Source of the DNA: Actinomycetes bacterium
GTDB taxonomy: Bacteria > Actinomycetota > Acidimicrobiia > Acidimicrobiales > Acidimicrobiaceae
Reading direction: 5' to 3'
Length of the DNA: 64,000 nt
NCBI GenBank assembly: GCA_021841935.1
Contig: JAKCDL010000002.1
Coordinates: 186,001 to 250,000, forward strand
The notes beneath the pieces were generated by a model. It was not told where the DNA came from. It made no database searches and saw only the letters and a program-made list of their open reading frames with translations. Positions within the stretch are counted from its first letter, which is position 1. Each line of letters begins with the position of its first letter. A program made the translations under genes and the position numbers. Positions 34,354-44,979 of this stretch are shown here, piece by piece.

Positions 34354-36279
34354 TCAAAGACCAAATGATGAAGCACTTCGAACAAAGTGTCGATTTTTTG
34401 CTTCCGATCTGTAACTCGCGATAAGTGGGAGGGTCAGGAGGGCTTCAATGAGGATGAGGCGCTTGATAATTGCGTAGATAAAGTAGGAGGGCAAACTAGT
34501 CAAGGTTTTAGCTCCCGTGTACCTTATCGCTAAAGCAGCTATCGTTCCGAAGTTCAAGATCTCAGCCAAACCAGTTGCTATTAGGGCATGGATGGCTAGG
34601 TGCCATTGGGTAATAATGGAGGCGGCGATCCATATTGGCACCATTCCCCGAGCCAATGACAGTGCACGGATTGAGTGCATCTTTGGGTAGAAGAACCAAC
34701 TTCTTGGACCGGTACTACCCGCATAGAGGGGATTGTGGCGAGCCCAAGAGTGGATTATTGCACGGTTCCAGCGAACCCGTTGTTCCCGAAAATCGGTGAG
34801 GTTCGCCGGAACATCTTCCTGGATCTTGATATTTGGATCTACGATAGCGCTATATCCAAGACGTGTTATCCCCATTGTAAAGTCCGCATCTTCGCCGTTC
34901 ATACCGTGAACGAAGCCTCCAGCCTCAATCGCTGCACTGCGCCTGAATGCGACAAAAGTTCCTGGAATGCAGTTAATTGCGCGCAGCCTTGACTGGGCAA
35001 TCAAGTTGAATCCGAAGGTCTTTAACTCTTCAAATCTACGCATTTTGTCGAACCAGGTGATTCCATTGTCAGTACGTGGAGTCGGTAGGGCGCCGACGAC
35101 TCCAATCTGAGGGTTTGCGAACCACTTTGGAAGGTGCGAGAGGCTCTCCCTTTCTATGATTATGTCGGCGTCGATTCGAATGACTATCTCTTCAGTACCA
35201 GCAAAGAAGGCCCCGTTGAGGGCGAAGCCCTTTCCTTGGTGCTCGAGGTCGATCACCTCGCCATGCAGGTACTTGCACCGCGAGAGCGCTCGGTTAGCAA
35301 CTGCTGATGTGTCGTCGCTTGATCCATCGTTGCCGATAATAAGCTTTACGGACCCCCGATATCCACTAGCAGCATTATCTAGTGCCATGATTGCCAGCTC
35401 GATCGAACTCTCCTCATTAAATGCCGGCATAATAACTTCGAGCCGAGGGGGATCTATCGGGGGCTCCCCTGGCTTTATCTTTGAAAACGCCACGAGGAGA
35501 ATAATCGAAGAGAGGGTATAGAAACTTGGGTACGACAAGATTGAGAGGAGAGAGACTTCTTGAAGTGGTAGCGCAAAGAGGATTGACGCAGAGAAGAGGC
35601 CGGCTCCAAGAAGTAGGACGAGAAGTACCGCAACCAAAATTAGCGAGGCCGACTGCGAGATATATGTCCATCGCCTTGGACGACGAACGGCTGTCGCCTT
35701 TGGAAGAACGAAGGTCGTCTGTAAGAAACGTAAGTACACCAAAGTTGAGATAATTATCACGACCAATGAGCCCTGAATCGCAAATGGTCCAATCGGCAAG
35801 TTCGTAGTTGAGGCAACCATGCTTTCTATTGCGTCAACGATCATCAAAACGATAAATAGTACCAAACCATGTACAGCGATGCTAAGGCGGGTTAGTAGTG
35901 GCGCCTTAAGTACGAGTGCTAATAGCGGAAAGTCGAGAAGCGATAGAAGACGTATTGCAATTGCCAATTGGCCGGCAGTAGAGACCTTCACGCCCCCAGG
36001 GCCGCTAATCAGATAGTTTACCAACGACTGGAGGAGACCTTTATAAAGAGTGGTTGACGGACCTGAAAAGACGATGGTAGCGATCGAAAATGTCGCTATG
36101 GCTACCATGAATATTAGCGGACGCCCCAGACCTGCCTTAGCGGGCTTTGGAATACTGACTAGATTGAGCCCATTGCCACCATCTAACTTTGACTCCCTCG
36201 AGATGCCTTCATATAAGTATGCAAATGTGAGGGCGAGAATAAAAAGCAAGCTTAAGAGGTGGTATAGGTTCACTTGCAT
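34354..36279 (-). CDS. Membrane family 2 glycosyltransferase (polysaccharide synthase type)
   Basis: A 641-residue integral membrane enzyme. The first 275 residues hold about six to eight hydrophobic helices. The cytosolic GT2 domain follows: VIMPAFNEESS, IGNDGSSDDTS, RIDADIII (DxD metal site), GEDADFTMG (ED/catalytic-base motif) and REQRVRWNRA (the QxxRW motif of processive synthases). C-terminal helices close the pore. These motifs are those of cellulose, hyaluronan and poly-GlcNAc synthases, so an exopolysaccharide polymerase is likely; the sugar is unknown. The gene begins 21 bp after the HlyD-like gene and is probably cotranscribed with it. Confidence 0.86.
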   Translation of the reverse strand: MQVNLYHLLSLLFILALTFAYLYEGISRESKLDGGNGLNLVSIPKPAKAGLGRPLIFMVAIATFSIATIVFSGPSTTLYKGLLQSLVNYLISGPGGVKVSTAGQLAIAIRLLSLLDFPLLALVLKAPLLTRLSIAVHGLVLFIVLMIVDAIESMVASTTNLPIGPFAIQGSLVVIIISTLVYLRFLQTTFVLPKATAVRRPRRWTYISQSASLILVAVLLVLLLGAGLFSASILFALPLQEVSLLSILSYPSFYTLSSIILLVAFSKIKPGEPPIDPPRLEVIMPAFNEESSIELAIMALDNAASGYRGSVKLIIGNDGSSDDTSAVANRALSRCKYLHGEVIDLEHQGKGFALNGAFFAGTEEIVIRIDADIIIERESLSHLPKWFANPQIGVVGALPTPRTDNGITWFDKMRRFEELKTFGFNLIAQSRLRAINCIPGTFVAFRRSAAIEAGGFVHGMNGEDADFTMGITRLGYSAIVDPNIKIQEDVPANLTDFREQRVRWNRAIIHSWARHNPLYAGSTGPRSWFFYPKMHSIRALSLARGMVPIWIAASIITQWHLAIHALIATGLAEILNFGTIAALAIRYTGAKTLTSLPSYFIYAIIKRLILIEALLTLPLIASYRSEAKNRHFVRSASSFGL

Positions 36280-36300
36280 AAGTTCAGCGCCACGGCCTCG

Positions 36301-37821
36301 TTAGCTCAGTGACCCAATTTGGCCCTGATAAAGTCCTTGTGGCATGGCTCCGTCTTCGTCTACGGTTATTAGAAAGTAGGAGGTACCATTTTCACTTACT
36401 TGGATCGGACTCGCGGAAGAGACAATGCCGGAGAAAGTTCGTTTGGTTGGAACTCGAAAAGCTGTCTTTATAATTTTGCCCGGTGAATATTGTCCAAGTT
36501 GACTTTGAGGTACAAGTAGCTTGACATTCCATGAAGCTCTATCGTCGATGACGATCAACGGTACGGACGAGGCGTTAGATGTCGATTGACCTCTACTAAG
36601 GCTTTGAAATAGTGATAGTTGCGCGTTAGCTGAAGGGGTCGAAATCCCACTTTGTGTTGAATTGGCAGTTCCGCTTGGCCCAGCAAGTTCGCCGATGTTC
36701 CCGTTTATCTCTTCTACTACACCAGACAGCGGTGACTTGAGTTCGGTCTGGCCAACGAGTTGTAGGTCCTGGTTCAAAGTATTTTGATCAGCAGCTAACT
36801 TTTGATTCAGCTGCTGAAGCGATGCCGTCGCAGATTCGGAGGTTGTGATTTGAGCTTCGTCTTGGGCCAGCTGGTTATTGGCTTGATTTAGGTTATTTTG
36901 TACCTGATCACGTGCTATAACAGCGTTTGCCTCTGCAGAGTTTACCGCCCCTGCGGCCGCACTAAGTGCTCTCTTGTCCGAGTCAATTTGGTCGTAAAGG
37001 TTGCTGCAGGTATTTGCACTCATCTGGTTGCTCAGTGAGGTGAGACCATTTGGGCATATTGTCGAGTAGCTTGAAAGATCATTCTGTTCGACTTGAAGTA
37101 GCGAGTTATAGTCATTTTGAGCCGTAGTGATGATCTGATTTTCAGATGCGATAGTGTCATTTAGTTGACTTTGTAGTGCTGATATTGTGGCCTTATCGCT
37201 ATTGACTTTTGCTGACTGAGCGGCTGTAGGTTGACCTAGTTGCTGTTTCAATGTTTCGATTGAGCTTTGATCTGAAGCTATATTTGCTTGGTCCGCACTG
37301 ATTTTGGTGCTAGCAGAGGATGAGTCCTGAGTTGCTAAAAGCTGTCCCGTCGAGACGTATTCGCCAGGGCGAACCGATATTGAACTAATCGTCGCCGTAT
37401 TCGGAAAGTTGAGAACTACCTGCTCCCCGCTAGAAGCCATAACGCTGACCTGTTGTCGCGATGCTTGAGTAGCTCTAAAGATGATGTAGCCGACGACGAC
37501 TATCAGGAGGATCGCAAATAAGAGCGATATGTATTCGCGTCGCCGAACCCTATTGGACCTATCAGGGCCGTTTGTTGCCCTCAAGAAGTATTCTTCGTTT
37601 ACAGGCGATTTGGTTCTGTTGAACGGCGATGGTGCCTCGCCCGTTATTGATACGACCCTTTCCTGGGGTTTGTAGAGTTCGACTGCTATTTTTTGGGATT
37701 TGGATGTAGCGAACTGTTCGCTGCTGCCCACATCGCCGCGTTTCGAGTCATCGTCGAAGTGAGTCAGATCGATGACATCTTCCGCATCACCTTCACCGCC
37801 TAATCCAGCCATCTCATCCAT
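36301..37821 (-). CDS. HlyD-like membrane fusion/adaptor protein
   Basis: A 506-residue protein. An acidic cytosolic N-terminus (about 1-95) precedes one transmembrane helix (about 97-116). Outside, a biotinyl-lipoyl-like half (SISVRPGEYVSTGQLLATQD, about 147-167) is followed by a long Gln/Ala/Asn-rich coiled coil (about 175-350) and the second lipoyl half (ELKSPLSGVVEEINGN), then beta-barrel sequence. This is the HlyD/EmrA adaptor pattern. With the membrane GT2 downstream, a role in exopolysaccharide polymerisation or export (comparable in layout to Alg44 beside Alg8) is an inference. Two Cys in the hairpin region may form a disulfide. Confidence 0.8.
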   Translation of the reverse strand: MDEMAGLGGEGDAEDVIDLTHFDDDSKRGDVGSSEQFATSKSQKIAVELYKPQERVVSITGEAPSPFNRTKSPVNEEYFLRATNGPDRSNRVRRREYISLLFAILLIVVVGYIIFRATQASRQQVSVMASSGEQVVLNFPNTATISSISVRPGEYVSTGQLLATQDSSSASTKISADQANIASDQSSIETLKQQLGQPTAAQSAKVNSDKATISALQSQLNDTIASENQIITTAQNDYNSLLQVEQNDLSSYSTICPNGLTSLSNQMSANTCSNLYDQIDSDKRALSAAAGAVNSAEANAVIARDQVQNNLNQANNQLAQDEAQITTSESATASLQQLNQKLAADQNTLNQDLQLVGQTELKSPLSGVVEEINGNIGELAGPSGTANSTQSGISTPSANAQLSLFQSLSRGQSTSNASSVPLIVIDDRASWNVKLLVPQSQLGQYSPGKIIKTAFRVPTKRTFSGIVSSASPIQVSENGTSYFLITVDEDGAMPQGLYQGQIGSLS

Positions 37822-37972: not shown

Positions 37973-38004
37973 AAAAATAAGGAGCACCATTCAAATAGTG
38001 CTCC
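37973..38004 (-). terminator. Rho-independent terminator after pspA
   Basis: On the minus strand a 7-bp stem (complement of 37981-37987 and 37998-38004), with further partial pairing towards the loop, is followed by TTATTTTTAT (complement of 37971-37980). It lies about 35 bp after the pspA stop. The remaining 37822-38040 gap shows nothing else recognisable. Confidence 0.65.
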
Positions 38005-38040: not shown

Positions 38041-39090
38041 TTACTCAATCTCGAGAAGCTGTTTCGCCTCGCTAATCGACATATCCTTGCTCGGCACAAC
38101 TAGGTCAGAGCTGACTATTTGACCAGGTGGAACGACCTTGCCAATCGTAGTGATGAGGTGAGTCAAATTTGTGGCGCAAGCAGAGAAAGCTGCTTCGTCC
38201 ATTTGGTTGATCGCCTTCTCCATTTCGTCATCGAGTGCGTCAAGAGAGGGTTTGATTGACATCGGAACGCTATAGATCTCTTCTCCTGCAATTCGAATGT
38301 AGATGTTGTTTGTGGGGGTTGCCGGAGCTGACTCAATGGCTTGGTTCGCTGGAGCCGCTAACGCCTCTTGAGGTGCGCTTGCGCCCATGCCTAATTCGGC
38401 CTTCATCTTCTCAAGTTCGAGGTCAATTCCTTGCCCTGACCTACCGGCGGAGAGAGCGCGCTCTATATCGTCGCTTCCACCGCTTCCAAGTGTGAGAGAG
38501 TCGAGTACCCCCGAATCAGAGAGTTCTCCAAGTGCTGCCGATCGAGCTTGATACTTGTTGATCTTATCTTGGGCTCGATCGAGCATTAGATTTACATCGG
38601 TCATGTGCTCAGATAGTCCAGAGAGGTTTTCTACCGCCTCAGTTGAGGCCTTAGCTGCGGTGTACTGGGCCTTCATCGTCTCTCGTTGAGTTCTAAACGT
38701 CTCGATCTTGGTCTGTAACTTACGTCCAGTATCCTCAAGCGCAGCACTTTGCGTCTTTAGTTGATCAATCTGGGGCTGTAGCGCTTCGATCTGGCCTTGT
38801 ATCCCCTTTGCCCTCTCAAGCGCTAAGCGTGCTACGTCCTCTTGATTTTGCTGCAGCGCTTGCCTTGCTTGACCCTGTAGCTTTTCAAATTGACTCGATA
38901 GCTGGGCCTTCTGAGCTTCAAGGCGCTTTTGTGAAGTCACAACATCTGCTATTGACCTACGAACCTGTTGTAGGTTTTCTAACATCTTCTGATAGGAGAG
39001 GTCAAGTGCCTGGGTTGGATCCTCAACCTTGTCTAACGCAGCATTGGCCTTCTGTTGAAATACCTGGGAAATCCTTTTAAAGACGCTCAT
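38041..39090 (-). CDS. pspA: PspA/IM30 membrane-stress protein fused to a PspAA domain
   Basis: ESCRT-III-like membrane remodelling protein. MSVFKRISQVFQQKANAALD is the canonical PspA start with its membrane-binding amphipathic helix, followed by long coiled-coil helices to about residue 215 and a Gly/Ser-rich linker. The last 90 residues (YIRIAGEEIYSVPMSIKPSL, LDDEMEKAINQMDEAAF, SSDLVVPSKDMSISEAKQLL) match my memory of PspAA, the PspA-associated domain, normally a separate small gene. ATG 39090 is chosen over the longer start at 39123 because it gives the family N-terminus. Divergent from rodA. Confidence 0.92.
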   Translation of the reverse strand: MSVFKRISQVFQQKANAALDKVEDPTQALDLSYQKMLENLQQVRRSIADVVTSQKRLEAQKAQLSSQFEKLQGQARQALQQNQEDVARLALERAKGIQGQIEALQPQIDQLKTQSAALEDTGRKLQTKIETFRTQRETMKAQYTAAKASTEAVENLSGLSEHMTDVNLMLDRAQDKINKYQARSAALGELSDSGVLDSLTLGSGGSDDIERALSAGRSGQGIDLELEKMKAELGMGASAPQEALAAPANQAIESAPATPTNNIYIRIAGEEIYSVPMSIKPSLDALDDEMEKAINQMDEAAFSACATNLTHLITTIGKVVPPGQIVSSDLVVPSKDMSISEAKQLLEIE

Positions 39091-39248
39091 TTGGGCTTGG
39101 TCCCTTCCACTTTGCTCAACCACTTAGCACTTTGAATATCTCTTTAAAGTAGCCGAGTCACATCTTTAGAACAACTACCAACTTAGCGCTCAACGTCTGA
39201 GAATTACCCGAGAGTTGGACATTATTGGAGCCACTGTCACTGCCTTAT

Positions 39249-39265: not shown

Positions 39266-39416
39266 CTCGCTTAGGTACCGGGTATTTTTCTACTAAAGTG
39301 GTTCATAGGCGAATTGCAAAAGTTGGTTCTCGAGGCATAACCGGATTCGGCATTTGCCCTCCTCGAAGGCTCGTAACTTTTGACTTTTGGACGTGTTTTA
39401 CGAAAGCTGGAGATGT

Positions 39417-40604
39417 GTGACTAATTTTTCGATAGTCCAGAGTAGAAGGCGTATTGTCAAAGAAAGTTTAATGCACTTTGACTACACGTTGATGTTAGTT
39501 ACAGTCGGCCTCGCAATGGTCGGCGTTTTGATGGTCTATAGCGCCACTAAGGGGCTACTTGTATCCAAAGGCCTAAATCCAAAGTACTACCTAGAACGAC
39601 AGGCCCTTTGGGTGGTCCTTGGTACTGTGGCAATGTTTGTTACTATCTTCGTCGACTATCGACATATACGACGCCTAGCGTATGTGATCTACGGTGGGGT
39701 GGTTTTAGGTCTTGTTGGAGTTTTGTCTCCATTTGGCCACAGCGCTCTCGGGGCTCAACGTTGGTTTCAGCTAGGTCCACTGCAGCTCCAACCCTCTGAA
39801 TTTGCAACTTTGGCGATTTTGATAATGGTTGCCTTCTACCTTGGGGACGAGGAGGGTTATATCTCGCTCAAGAAATTAGGCGGGGTACTTGTCTTGGCTG
39901 GCCTTCCGATGGCCCTGGTCGTCAAACAGCCTGACGTTGGAACTGCCATAATCATCGGTATAGTTCTCCTGTCGCAGCTCGTAGTCTCTCGTATAAGGCT
40001 CTCTCATCTGATTGTTTTGGTCTTTTTGGGCGTGATTGGCATTTATTTGGTAATCAAGTTGCATATTCTTCAGAAGTACCAACTTGATCGATTGACGTCG
40101 TTTCTTCATACCAATACAAACTCATCTACGACTGGATACAATCTTGCGCAGTCAAAGATTGCGATTGGAGCTGGCGGAATATATGGCAAAGGGCTATTTC
40201 ACGGAACGCAAACCAACTTATCCTACGTTCCTGAGCAGCAGACCGACTTTATCTTTACAGCTTTAGGAGAACAGTTTGGATTTGTCGGGGGGTCAATTGT
40301 TATTGGTGCCTTCGGATATGTTTGCTGGAGAGTTTGGCACGTAGTCTCGATAGCTCGTGACAAGACCGGAAGGGTCTTGGCAGCTGGCGTCCTATCGTTG
40401 TTAGCATTTTCGATCTTTCAAAATGTTGCAATGACAATGGGTATTATGCCTATCACTGGAATTCCATTACCATTTATGAGCTACGGTGGCTCTGCAGCAC
40501 TCTCCTTTTTCACTGCGATAGGAATCGCCCTCGGAATTGGCTTTCGCAATGCTAGGTATCTACCTGAGGATAAGCGTGCTCTTCAGATGATGCGACGCGA
40601 GTAA
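39417..40604 (+). CDS. rodA: SEDS peptidoglycan polymerase RodA
   Basis: Integral membrane peptidoglycan glycosyltransferase for side-wall growth, about 10 helices. Signature segments: HFDYTLMLVTVGLAMVGVLM, GAQRWFQLGPLQLQPSEFA, VVKQPDVGTAIIIG (catalytic-region Asp), GYNLAQSKIAIGAGGIYGKG and PEQQTDFIFTALGEQFGFVG, ending GIPLPFMSYGGSAALSF. The start is uncertain: GTG 39417 has GGAGA just upstream; ATG 39471 gives a protein starting at HFDYT; TTG 39387 is the longest. A second SEDS protein lies at 43492-44979. No cognate class B PBP is adjacent. Confidence 0.93.
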   Translation: MTNFSIVQSRRRIVKESLMHFDYTLMLVTVGLAMVGVLMVYSATKGLLVSKGLNPKYYLERQALWVVLGTVAMFVTIFVDYRHIRRLAYVIYGGVVLGLVGVLSPFGHSALGAQRWFQLGPLQLQPSEFATLAILIMVAFYLGDEEGYISLKKLGGVLVLAGLPMALVVKQPDVGTAIIIGIVLLSQLVVSRIRLSHLIVLVFLGVIGIYLVIKLHILQKYQLDRLTSFLHTNTNSSTTGYNLAQSKIAIGAGGIYGKGLFHGTQTNLSYVPEQQTDFIFTALGEQFGFVGGSIVIGAFGYVCWRVWHVVSIARDKTGRVLAAGVLSLLAFSIFQNVAMTMGIMPITGIPLPFMSYGGSAALSFFTAIGIALGIGFRNARYLPEDKRALQMMRRE

Positions 40605-40617
40605 GTGCAATACTAAA

Positions 40618-41199
40618 GTGCCACCTGAGGCGAAGATAATCTTGATGAGCGAATGGAATTACGCAGTGGAGACTGGTTTTGGGGAAGAAGATCCCTATAT
40701 AAACGTCAGCGATGTGGAGGTTGAAGCGCCGAAAGAGGAGACTACGGATACGTTTGCAGAGGTATCTGACCTTCATGGCGGCGAGGCGATCTCTAGGCTT
40801 TCGATGATGCGAAGGTGCCTAGTCGAAGACGTTAGGGTGCTGCTTCCGGAGACCAATGGAACATTGATTATTCGTGAGGTTGATAGTCCAAATCGAATCC
40901 TTAAAGTTCCCGTTGGCCTCGACCAGGCGTCGATGCTTTCAATTTACTTAAAAGGTGTTTCGAGGGTTCGCCCGCTCTTGCCCGAAGTAATGATCGATAT
41001 CTTGAATCAGTATGCGGTAAGTATTGCTATGGTTTCGATAACTTCTAAAGACGGAGGGGTTTATCGCAGTGAAGTCACAACAGTTGACTCAAGTGGTAAG
41101 TCCAAGAGCGTGCCGGCGCGTTTGAGTGACGCAGTTCTGCTGACTTTGGCTTCTCCACTTGCTCCTCCTTTGATGGTTGAAGAGAGTTTGCTCAGTTGA
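40618..41199 (+). CDS. Bifunctional nuclease (DUF151) domain protein
   Basis: A 193-residue protein. The first 60 residues are acidic and variable. From about residue 70 it matches the BFN/DUF151 domain: LPIIREV-like strand LIIREVDSPNRILKVPVG, AS-MLSIYLKGVSRVRPLLPEV, VMIDILNQYAVSIAMVSIT, and VPARLSDAVLLTLA near the end, the equivalent of the conserved ARPSDAIALA. Some plant and archaeal members have DNase and RNase activity; the bacterial role is unclear. GTG 40618 or ATG 40645 are possible starts. It follows rodA by 13 bp. Confidence 0.82.
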   Translation: MPPEAKIILMSEWNYAVETGFGEEDPYINVSDVEVEAPKEETTDTFAEVSDLHGGEAISRLSMMRRCLVEDVRVLLPETNGTLIIREVDSPNRILKVPVGLDQASMLSIYLKGVSRVRPLLPEVMIDILNQYAVSIAMVSITSKDGGVYRSEVTTVDSSGKSKSVPARLSDAVLLTLASPLAPPLMVEESLLS

Positions 41200-43491: not shown

Positions 43492-44979
43492 TCATGGCCG
43501 ACTCTGTGCTTCGATTAGCGAGTGACGCCGAAATCTCAAACGATTTGCCTTTACGAAGAACTCATCGACGCTTCCCTCGTCTGAAATTCTCATTATCACC
43601 GCCACCAAGATGTAGCTCGAGACAAGCGAAGATCCACCATAAGCAACAAATGGTAAGGTAACGCCGGTAAGTGGTATGAGTCGGACTACTCCACCCATAA
43701 TGAAGAATGCTTGGAGCCCCAGCATTGTGGTAAATATGGTTGCAACCAGAGCTGTAAAGTCATTTCTGGCACGTAGCGCTGTGCGCAGCCCGACTCCGAC
43801 TAGCAGGACGAATGCTATTACCATCGCCGAGGTGCCGGCTAGGCCAAGCTCTTCACCTACGGCAGCAAAGATGAAGTCGCTCGAGACAACTGGAATAAGG
43901 TTGGGGTGGCCGAGGCCTAAACCAGTTCCACTAACTCCACCGGCTGCAAGTGCATATTGAGCTTGAACGATCTGATATCCAATGGTTTGGGCGTACTTCC
44001 AGGGATCTATCCATGTGATAAGGCGTTCATTTACTTGACCGAAGAGGTGCGTAGCCAAGAGCGCTCCTCCGACGAAAAGTAGAATTCCCCCAACCAAGTA
44101 ACGAACCCTAGCTGTGGTCAGCCAAATTGTGATAATGAAGACCAGGAAGAGCATTAAAGAGAAGCCAACGTCTCGCTCCATAAGCATGATGAGGATGGAG
44201 CCTAGCCATGCTGTTAGAAGTGGTCCGAGAATGCGCGGATTGAGAGTATCTCTTAGAGTTTGACGCCCCTTTGCGCCTCCTATGATGTCGTTTTTTTCTA
44301 CAAAATATGAGGCAAAAAATATTGCTAGGAGCAGCTTTGAGATCTCTACTGGTTGAAAGGTGTATGGCCCTAGGTGAATCCAGAGGCGTGCACCATTGAT
44401 AGTCTCGCCTATTCCTGGAACGAGTGGCAGCACCAGCATTGCAAGGCCGGCCAAGGCAAATAGGAATCGAAAGCGTTCCAAGATCGCCGATCTGTCGACG
44501 AAGAAGAGTGTGAGCGCATAGAGTACGACTCCAACGTAGGTCCAAAGTACTTGAAGGGAAGCTTCGTGCGGATTTAGTCTCCAAATCATGACGTAGCCAA
44601 GGTCATTGAGGAGTGCTACGATCGGCATAAATGCGGAGTCGCTATTTGGAGCGAAGGCGACATTCGTCAGGTGAATTGCGAAGGGCGTCAGGGCCATAAG
44701 TATCGGAACAAGTATCGGAACCGACTTCGCATTTGGGAATCTCCCGAAGAAGGCGAGAAGGTAAGCCAATATGAAGATTATCGTGACGATCAGGATCATG
44801 CCTAATTCGCTTCTTCGGTTTTTGGTGTAAAACTCGGAAATCTTCAGCCTTGCTCCCCGTCGCTCTTTCTTTTGATTGTAGTTGTAAATCTGGAACAATC
44901 GAATTTGAGTGCGTCTTAGTGGAACAAACCGTTTGTCGCACGAAAGCTTTGACTTCAAATTTGTTCGAAACCGTTGCAA
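43492..44979 (-). CDS. SEDS family protein (FtsW/RodA/SpoVE)
   Basis: A large SEDS polymerase, 495 residues in the open frame. About 12 helices start near residue 60. Motifs include NGARLWIHLGPYTFQPVEIS, LLLAIFFASYF, MERDVGFSLMLFLVF, a WKYAQTIGYQIVQAQYALAAG segment, GLGHPNLIPVVSSDFIFAAVGEE split over one loop, and LTGVTLPFVAYGGSSLVSSY. The long N-terminal hydrophobic part is like the actinobacterial Rv0017c-type protein beside pknA/pknB, but those kinases are not here. The first 40-45 residues look non-coding: TTG 44898 is one alternative and a CTG at 44847 has GGGGAG upstream. Convergent with the peroxiredoxin gene. Confidence 0.88.
   Translation of the reverse strand: MQRFRTNLKSKLSCDKRFVPLRRTQIRLFQIYNYNQKKERRGARLKISEFYTKNRRSELGMILIVTIIFILAYLLAFFGRFPNAKSVPILVPILMALTPFAIHLTNVAFAPNSDSAFMPIVALLNDLGYVMIWRLNPHEASLQVLWTYVGVVLYALTLFFVDRSAILERFRFLFALAGLAMLVLPLVPGIGETINGARLWIHLGPYTFQPVEISKLLLAIFFASYFVEKNDIIGGAKGRQTLRDTLNPRILGPLLTAWLGSILIMLMERDVGFSLMLFLVFIITIWLTTARVRYLVGGILLFVGGALLATHLFGQVNERLITWIDPWKYAQTIGYQIVQAQYALAAGGVSGTGLGLGHPNLIPVVSSDFIFAAVGEELGLAGTSAMVIAFVLLVGVGLRTALRARNDFTALVATIFTTMLGLQAFFIMGGVVRLIPLTGVTLPFVAYGGSSLVSSYILVAVIMRISDEGSVDEFFVKANRLRFRRHSLIEAQSRP

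Follow-up and report, generated by a model that had tools for sequence, protein, structure and literature searches.

PspA proteins are ESCRT-III-like coat proteins that protect bacterial membranes. The joining of PspA to PspAA in one polypeptide has already been published: Ravi et al. 2024 (PMC11237479), in the part of the paper available to us, gave ACU53894.1 as an example, placed such fusions in Actinobacteria and Chloroflexi, and reported that architecture varies little in over 98% of PspA homologs. An earlier survey (PMC9239133), as far as its accessible text goes, described PspA of about 300 residues in Actinobacteriota, in which an HMM scan found no added domain. In Vipp1, the C-terminal module of flexible linker and helix alpha6 likely lies over the outer surface of the ring and was reported to regulate self-association negatively (PMC8281802, accessible sections). 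In our literature search we found no experiment on PspAA and no published function for it; a Pfam family exists. Here we analysed a stretch of 64,000 nucleotides from a genome of the Acidimicrobiaceae (hereafter, the window), in which a PspA-PspAA fusion had been noticed in a first-pass annotation.

The fused gene and its product

The fused gene occupies positions 38041..39090 of the window on the minus strand and encodes 349 residues plus a stop, as indicated by its reading frame, Pfam matches, structure models and sequence constraint. It starts with ATG at 39090 (an in-frame GTG lies upstream at 39123) and its stop codon ends at 38041; the plus strand of 38041-39090 contains many stops, and the open frame is that of the minus strand. 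The PspA_IM30 family (PF04012) matched residues 2-232 (38395..39087, minus strand) with an E-value of 2.3e-30 and 106.3 bits against a cut-off of 33.9. The PspAA family (PF22743) matched residues 265-347 (38050..38298, minus strand) with an E-value of 1e-18 and 67.8 bits against a cut-off of 27, and the match spans positions 3-85 of the 92 in the profile. Both domains are on the same polypeptide, and the first-pass annotation was right to place a PspAA domain at the C-terminus.

The full-length protein was modelled by AlphaFold2 with an alignment of 36 fused proteins. In this model the PspA part forms a long helical hairpin (residues 25-80 and 84-192) followed by short helices at 209-215 and 222-232; its ESCRT-III-like fold was indicated by the hairpin of residues 25-192 and by Foldseek, whose 14 matches with E ≤ 0.001 were without exception to Vipp1 or PspA chains. 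The solved chains matched by sequence (phmmer) were likewise PspA and Vipp1, and none of these matches went past query residue 222. Residues 234-260 (38311..38391, minus strand) had pLDDT below 50 and are predicted to be disordered, in agreement with the flexible linker suggested earlier, and strand and helix elements restart at residue 262. The PspAA part was modelled as an alpha/beta domain of residues 262-348 with helices at 277-295, 299-316 and 339-348 and strands or bridges near 262, 272, 317 and 330, one strand being merely two residues long. A model of the domain alone agreed with this (C-terminal piece of 92 residues, mean pLDDT 82.7, pTM 0.64). The full-length model had a pTM of 0.35, so its domain placement is uninformative and it gives no reliable PspA-PspAA contact. 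When the PspAA model was compared with a copy of the PDB, Foldseek returned 49 matches at E ≤ 10, not one of which reached E ≤ 0.001, and the best VIA-align Z among 106 chains was 4.9, which is in the range that the tool calls common and is not proof of a new fold.

In the three pairwise comparisons among the window and the loci L051 and L081, the PspAA part had pN of 0.056-0.068 against pS of 0.72-0.91, and the linker had pN of 0.17-0.36; the ratios are rough, as synonymous sites are near saturation. Judged by these substitutions, the PspAA part is strongly constrained. The linker between the domain matches ranges from 7 to 72 residues among relatives and varies in sequence too. Chance or artefact as the source of the fusion is ruled out by the domain scores, by the 35 of 36 loci that are full-length and fused, and by this constraint. 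The analysis confirmed that PspA with PspAA on its C-terminus, joined by a disordered linker, is a true and well-formed fusion.

A terminator-like hairpin (37981..38004, minus strand) lies 36 bases past the stop codon, with 10 pairs, a loop of 4 and a T-rich tail. Two terminator-like sites were found where 1.5 were expected in shuffled sequences, so the count is weak by itself; hairpins of different sequence occur at a similar position 3ʹ of the fused gene in L051, L081 and L052. The hairpin past the stop codon suggests that the fused gene is a single-gene unit. The genes downstream (34354-37821, minus strand) encode an HlyD-like protein and a family 2 glycosyltransferase; they were considered as part of the unit and dropped, being present only in L051 and L081 among the 36 relatives.

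In the genome of the window, whose assembly is estimated to be 86.6% complete, the search found one PspA match and one PspAA match, both of them the fused gene, and no second copy of either. In the same assembly PspC (PF04024) had no match at E ≤ 0.001, and a classical Psp system of the PspA/PspC type is therefore not supported by the sequence at hand.

The first-pass annotation had also argued that the fusion fixes a 1:1 ratio of the two domains. In the window this holds for the genes found in that assembly. ATC stands where the ancestral PspAA gene began, and an internal start at this codon, which would give free PspAA, was rejected for the window. The claim is weaker among relatives: methionine occupies the ancestral start column in 13 of 36 rows, and in five of the 35 relatives (L052, L053, L058, L064 and L072) ATG or TTG at this position is preceded by GGAG 5 bases upstream, so that an internal start of PspAA in these five is conceivable.

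Origin of the fusion

Among 296 genomes of the class Acidimicrobiia, PspAA was matched in 19, with 18 over the cut-off, and PspA in 145. Six of the 18 carry fused genes (G000, G214, G014, G134, G269 and G233), which answers the earlier call for a survey of other Acidimicrobiia, and the remaining 12 carry dyads, in each of which pspAA comes immediately after pspA with the same orientation (12/12). A draw of 396 genomes from the phylum gave 46 PspAA matches in 44 genomes, 2 of them fused and 44 dyads; one of these dyads was already in the class survey, and in all 43 newly examined PspA is upstream of PspAA on the same strand. These counts (dyads for 44 of the 46 phylum matches and in 12 of the 18 class genomes over the cut-off) support the earlier statement that PspAA is as a rule encoded by a small gene of its own next to pspA. 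In the class, the PspAA scores of fused proteins (70-82 bits) were lower than those of dyads (77-116 bits). Since PspA without PspAA is common (145 against 19 of the 296 class genomes), PspAA is, by gene content, dispensable for PspA function in general.

The pspA and pspAA genes overlap by 4 bases in 10 of the 12 class dyads and in 28 of the 43 other phylum dyads, counted from the codon at which the PspAA domain match begins; in the junctions of these dyads that were inspected, this codon is ATG or GTG. As most class dyads overlap in this way, the two genes were probably translationally coupled before the fusion. For the same reason, the step from dyad to fusion may have changed the PspA:PspAA ratio less than the first-pass annotation implied.

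When named genomes were scanned with an alignment of fused proteins, 36 loci were returned, of which 35 were fused and one, L085, was cut by a contig end; as fused sequences were used for the scan, it is uninformative on frequency. The fused loci include those of Acidithrix ferrooxidans (L052), Ferrithrix thermotolerans (L067) and Ferrimicrobium sp. (L077). We take ACU53894.1 to be a record of Acidimicrobium ferrooxidans, which would place it in the same family as the window. Many class genomes carry a PspA-family protein far from the PspAA-linked type (loci L034, L036, L040, L044, L045, L048 and L050). With the PspA part of the window protein as phmmer query it scored 10-23 bits, against at least 143 bits for the other type, so there are at least two types of PspA in the class.

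In a tree of concatenated PspA and PspAA (94 rows, 41 fused and 53 dyads) the fused proteins formed one clade (SH-aLRT 100) on a stem of 1.03 changes per column, nested inside a clade of same-order dyads; with such a stem, its exact placement is uncertain. Separate trees agreed on one fused clade, with stems of 1.23 for PspA and 0.88 for PspAA, and a careful PspA-only tree that included 12 fused rows supported the clade at 100/100. The dyad nearest to it is that of genome G244, with moderate support (92/84). The fused set was enriched by the scan with fused sequences, and identical rows were kept (L015/L082, L019/L052 and L018/L067), so the independent samples number fewer than the 41 fused rows. 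Five rows were left out of the concatenated tree: L002 duplicates L001; L006, L085 and L126 are truncated at contig ends; and L020 fell below the Pfam cut-off and was missed by the profile made here. Identity between fused proteins and same-order dyads was 48.6% for PspA and 31.5% for PspAA, compared with 71.0% and 47.6% within 23 fused representatives and 65.8% and 41.9% within the same-order dyads; the long stem thus involves both halves and not PspAA alone.

Sequence and survey show that the fusion arose once in this part of the class and that its precursor was a two-gene pspA-pspAA dyad; it looks like one ancient event in an acidophilic actinobacterial family. Several independent fusions are ruled out within the sample, where one change on the tree is sufficient; the Chloroflexi fusions named by Ravi et al. 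lie outside it and may have an independent origin.

Gene neighbourhood and the probable partner of PspAA

In eight of the nine class dyad regions examined, htpX and pspAB follow directly after pspA-pspAA, the exception being G244. In all six fused genomes htpX-pspAB lies away from the fused gene, with htpX always near pspAB, and pspAB is either on another contig or, in the single-contig G014, 432 kb distant. Neither htpX nor pspAB was found in the 36 fused loci with flanks up to 4 kb; it is G014 together with these flanks that establishes the distance, since contig differences alone are insufficient. When htpX-pspAB moved to a locus of its own, PspAA remained with PspA. This favours PspA over HtpX and PspAB as the likely functional partner of PspAA, and action in trans is compatible with the same arrangement. 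That PspAA acts directly on the PspA oligomer, as first suggested from the fusion, is a fair inference.

By analogy with Vipp1, the closest relative to bear a C-terminal module, PspAA could be a regulatory module on every protomer of an ESCRT-III-like PspA coat, which is the likeliest of the readings considered and one in which we place a little less than even confidence. PspA would polymerise through its helical core into rings, rods or patches on the stressed inner membrane; each protomer would bear one tethered PspAA on the side of the coat that faces the cytoplasm and not the membrane, and PspAA would tune the assembly or disassembly of PspA. Counting against this reading are the many class genomes with PspA and no PspAA, the lower PspAA scores of the fused proteins, the conceivable internal start in five relatives and the long stem of the fused clade.

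The exceptional dyad genome bears on how the loci separated. In G244, one contig carries the pspA-pspAA dyad without htpX-pspAB, and another carries a pspA-htpX-pspAB operon (L161, contig 26, 3749-6205) without a PspAA match. This looks like an intermediate before the fusion; it is one genome, and a secondary loss of pspAA would look alike. We tentatively suggest, with less confidence than for the regulatory module, that PspAA may be an obligate co-subunit of the PspA coat here, that PspA with PspAA (coat) and HtpX with PspAB (membrane proteolysis) may form two modules, and that the Acidimicrobiaceae may record their split. The pspA-pspAA pair would first have left the four-gene operon, as in G244, where the remainder is pspA-htpX-pspAB; it would then have fused beside ftsW, with loss of the operon copy of pspA.

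The same neighbourhoods could be read differently, with PspAA as a docking module through which the PspA coat recruits, for example, the HtpX (M48) protease or PspAB, and which does no tuning of assembly. The single pspA-pspAA-htpX-pspAB cluster in eight of the nine class dyad regions examined is consistent with such docking, as is the presence of PspAB in all 17 PspAA genomes searched; in the genome of the window, PspAB is encoded on a different contig from the fused gene, next to an M48 (HtpX-type) peptidase. However, the two pairs are apart in every fused genome and G244 has an operon of pspA, htpX and pspAB that lacks pspAA, both of which are still compatible with interaction in trans, and neither htpX nor pspAB was detected by tblastn within the 14 kb examined around the dyad L143, which belongs to a different family. 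We consider a purely docking role less likely than a regulatory one, though not remote.

The fused gene instead adjoins a divergent ftsW, matched in 35 of 36 loci and within about 0.9 kb in 34 of them; in L082 it is about 3.4 kb off, and in L086 the upstream sequence is too short. In the window, two FtsW/RodA-family genes lie at 39387-40604 (plus strand) and 43492-44979 (minus strand), within 6 kb, one of them divergent from the fused gene, and such a pair around the fused gene recurs in many relatives. Beside ftsW, at 40618-41199 (plus strand), is a gene for a bifunctional nuclease domain protein, with a homologue likewise placed in many fused loci. Regulation shared with ftsW was considered and dropped: of the upstream regions of 13 loci, good alignment was confined to those of the window, L051 and L081, and no match to a sigma-70-type promoter was found.

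Retention of the fusion and comparison with known systems

A frameshift could also have joined the two co-translated genes with little functional change, the product then being kept by descent. In favour of this, most dyads overlap by 4 bases, one event accounts for all fused rows, and the linker is variable and weakly constrained. Against this, the fusion was retained in all 41 rows sampled and the long stems of both PspA (1.23) and PspAA (0.88) suggest change, which relocation alone could also have caused; we regard a near-neutral fusion as improbable. That the linker is cut under stress, for instance by a membrane M48 protease, so as to release PspAA or free PspA, is very hard to credit: the linker is predicted to be disordered and a protease gene is kept in all six fused genomes examined, but no conserved cleavage motif was seen in a linker of such variable length and sequence.

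A natural fusion of single origin, with same-order dyad relatives for comparison, makes it possible to test cleanly whether PspA itself is what PspAA works on, and the separation from htpX-pspAB indicates which of the four genes belong together.

Among known systems, the pspA-pspAA dyad, whether or not htpX and pspAB accompany it, has the two domains of the fused gene in the same order, with both of its genes on one strand. The dyad differs in making two proteins from genes that usually overlap, and in the class htpX-pspAB comes next to it, whereas this pair has been lost from beside the fused gene. Vipp1/IM30 resembles the window protein in having a PspA-like ESCRT-III core and a C-terminal module on a flexible linker (PMC8281802, accessible sections), and Vipp1 chains are among the matches to the N-terminal portion of the latter; the extension of Vipp1, however, is a short linker and one helix, whereas that of the window protein is an 85-residue alpha/beta domain with its own Pfam family. 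The fusions of Ravi et al. (PMC11237479) have PspA at the N-terminus and PspAA at the C-terminus, as here; the single origin, the 4-base overlap of the dyads and the separation from htpX-pspAB are absent from the accessible part of that paper. The window gene is an unlisted member of this published architecture, with a clear single-event history.
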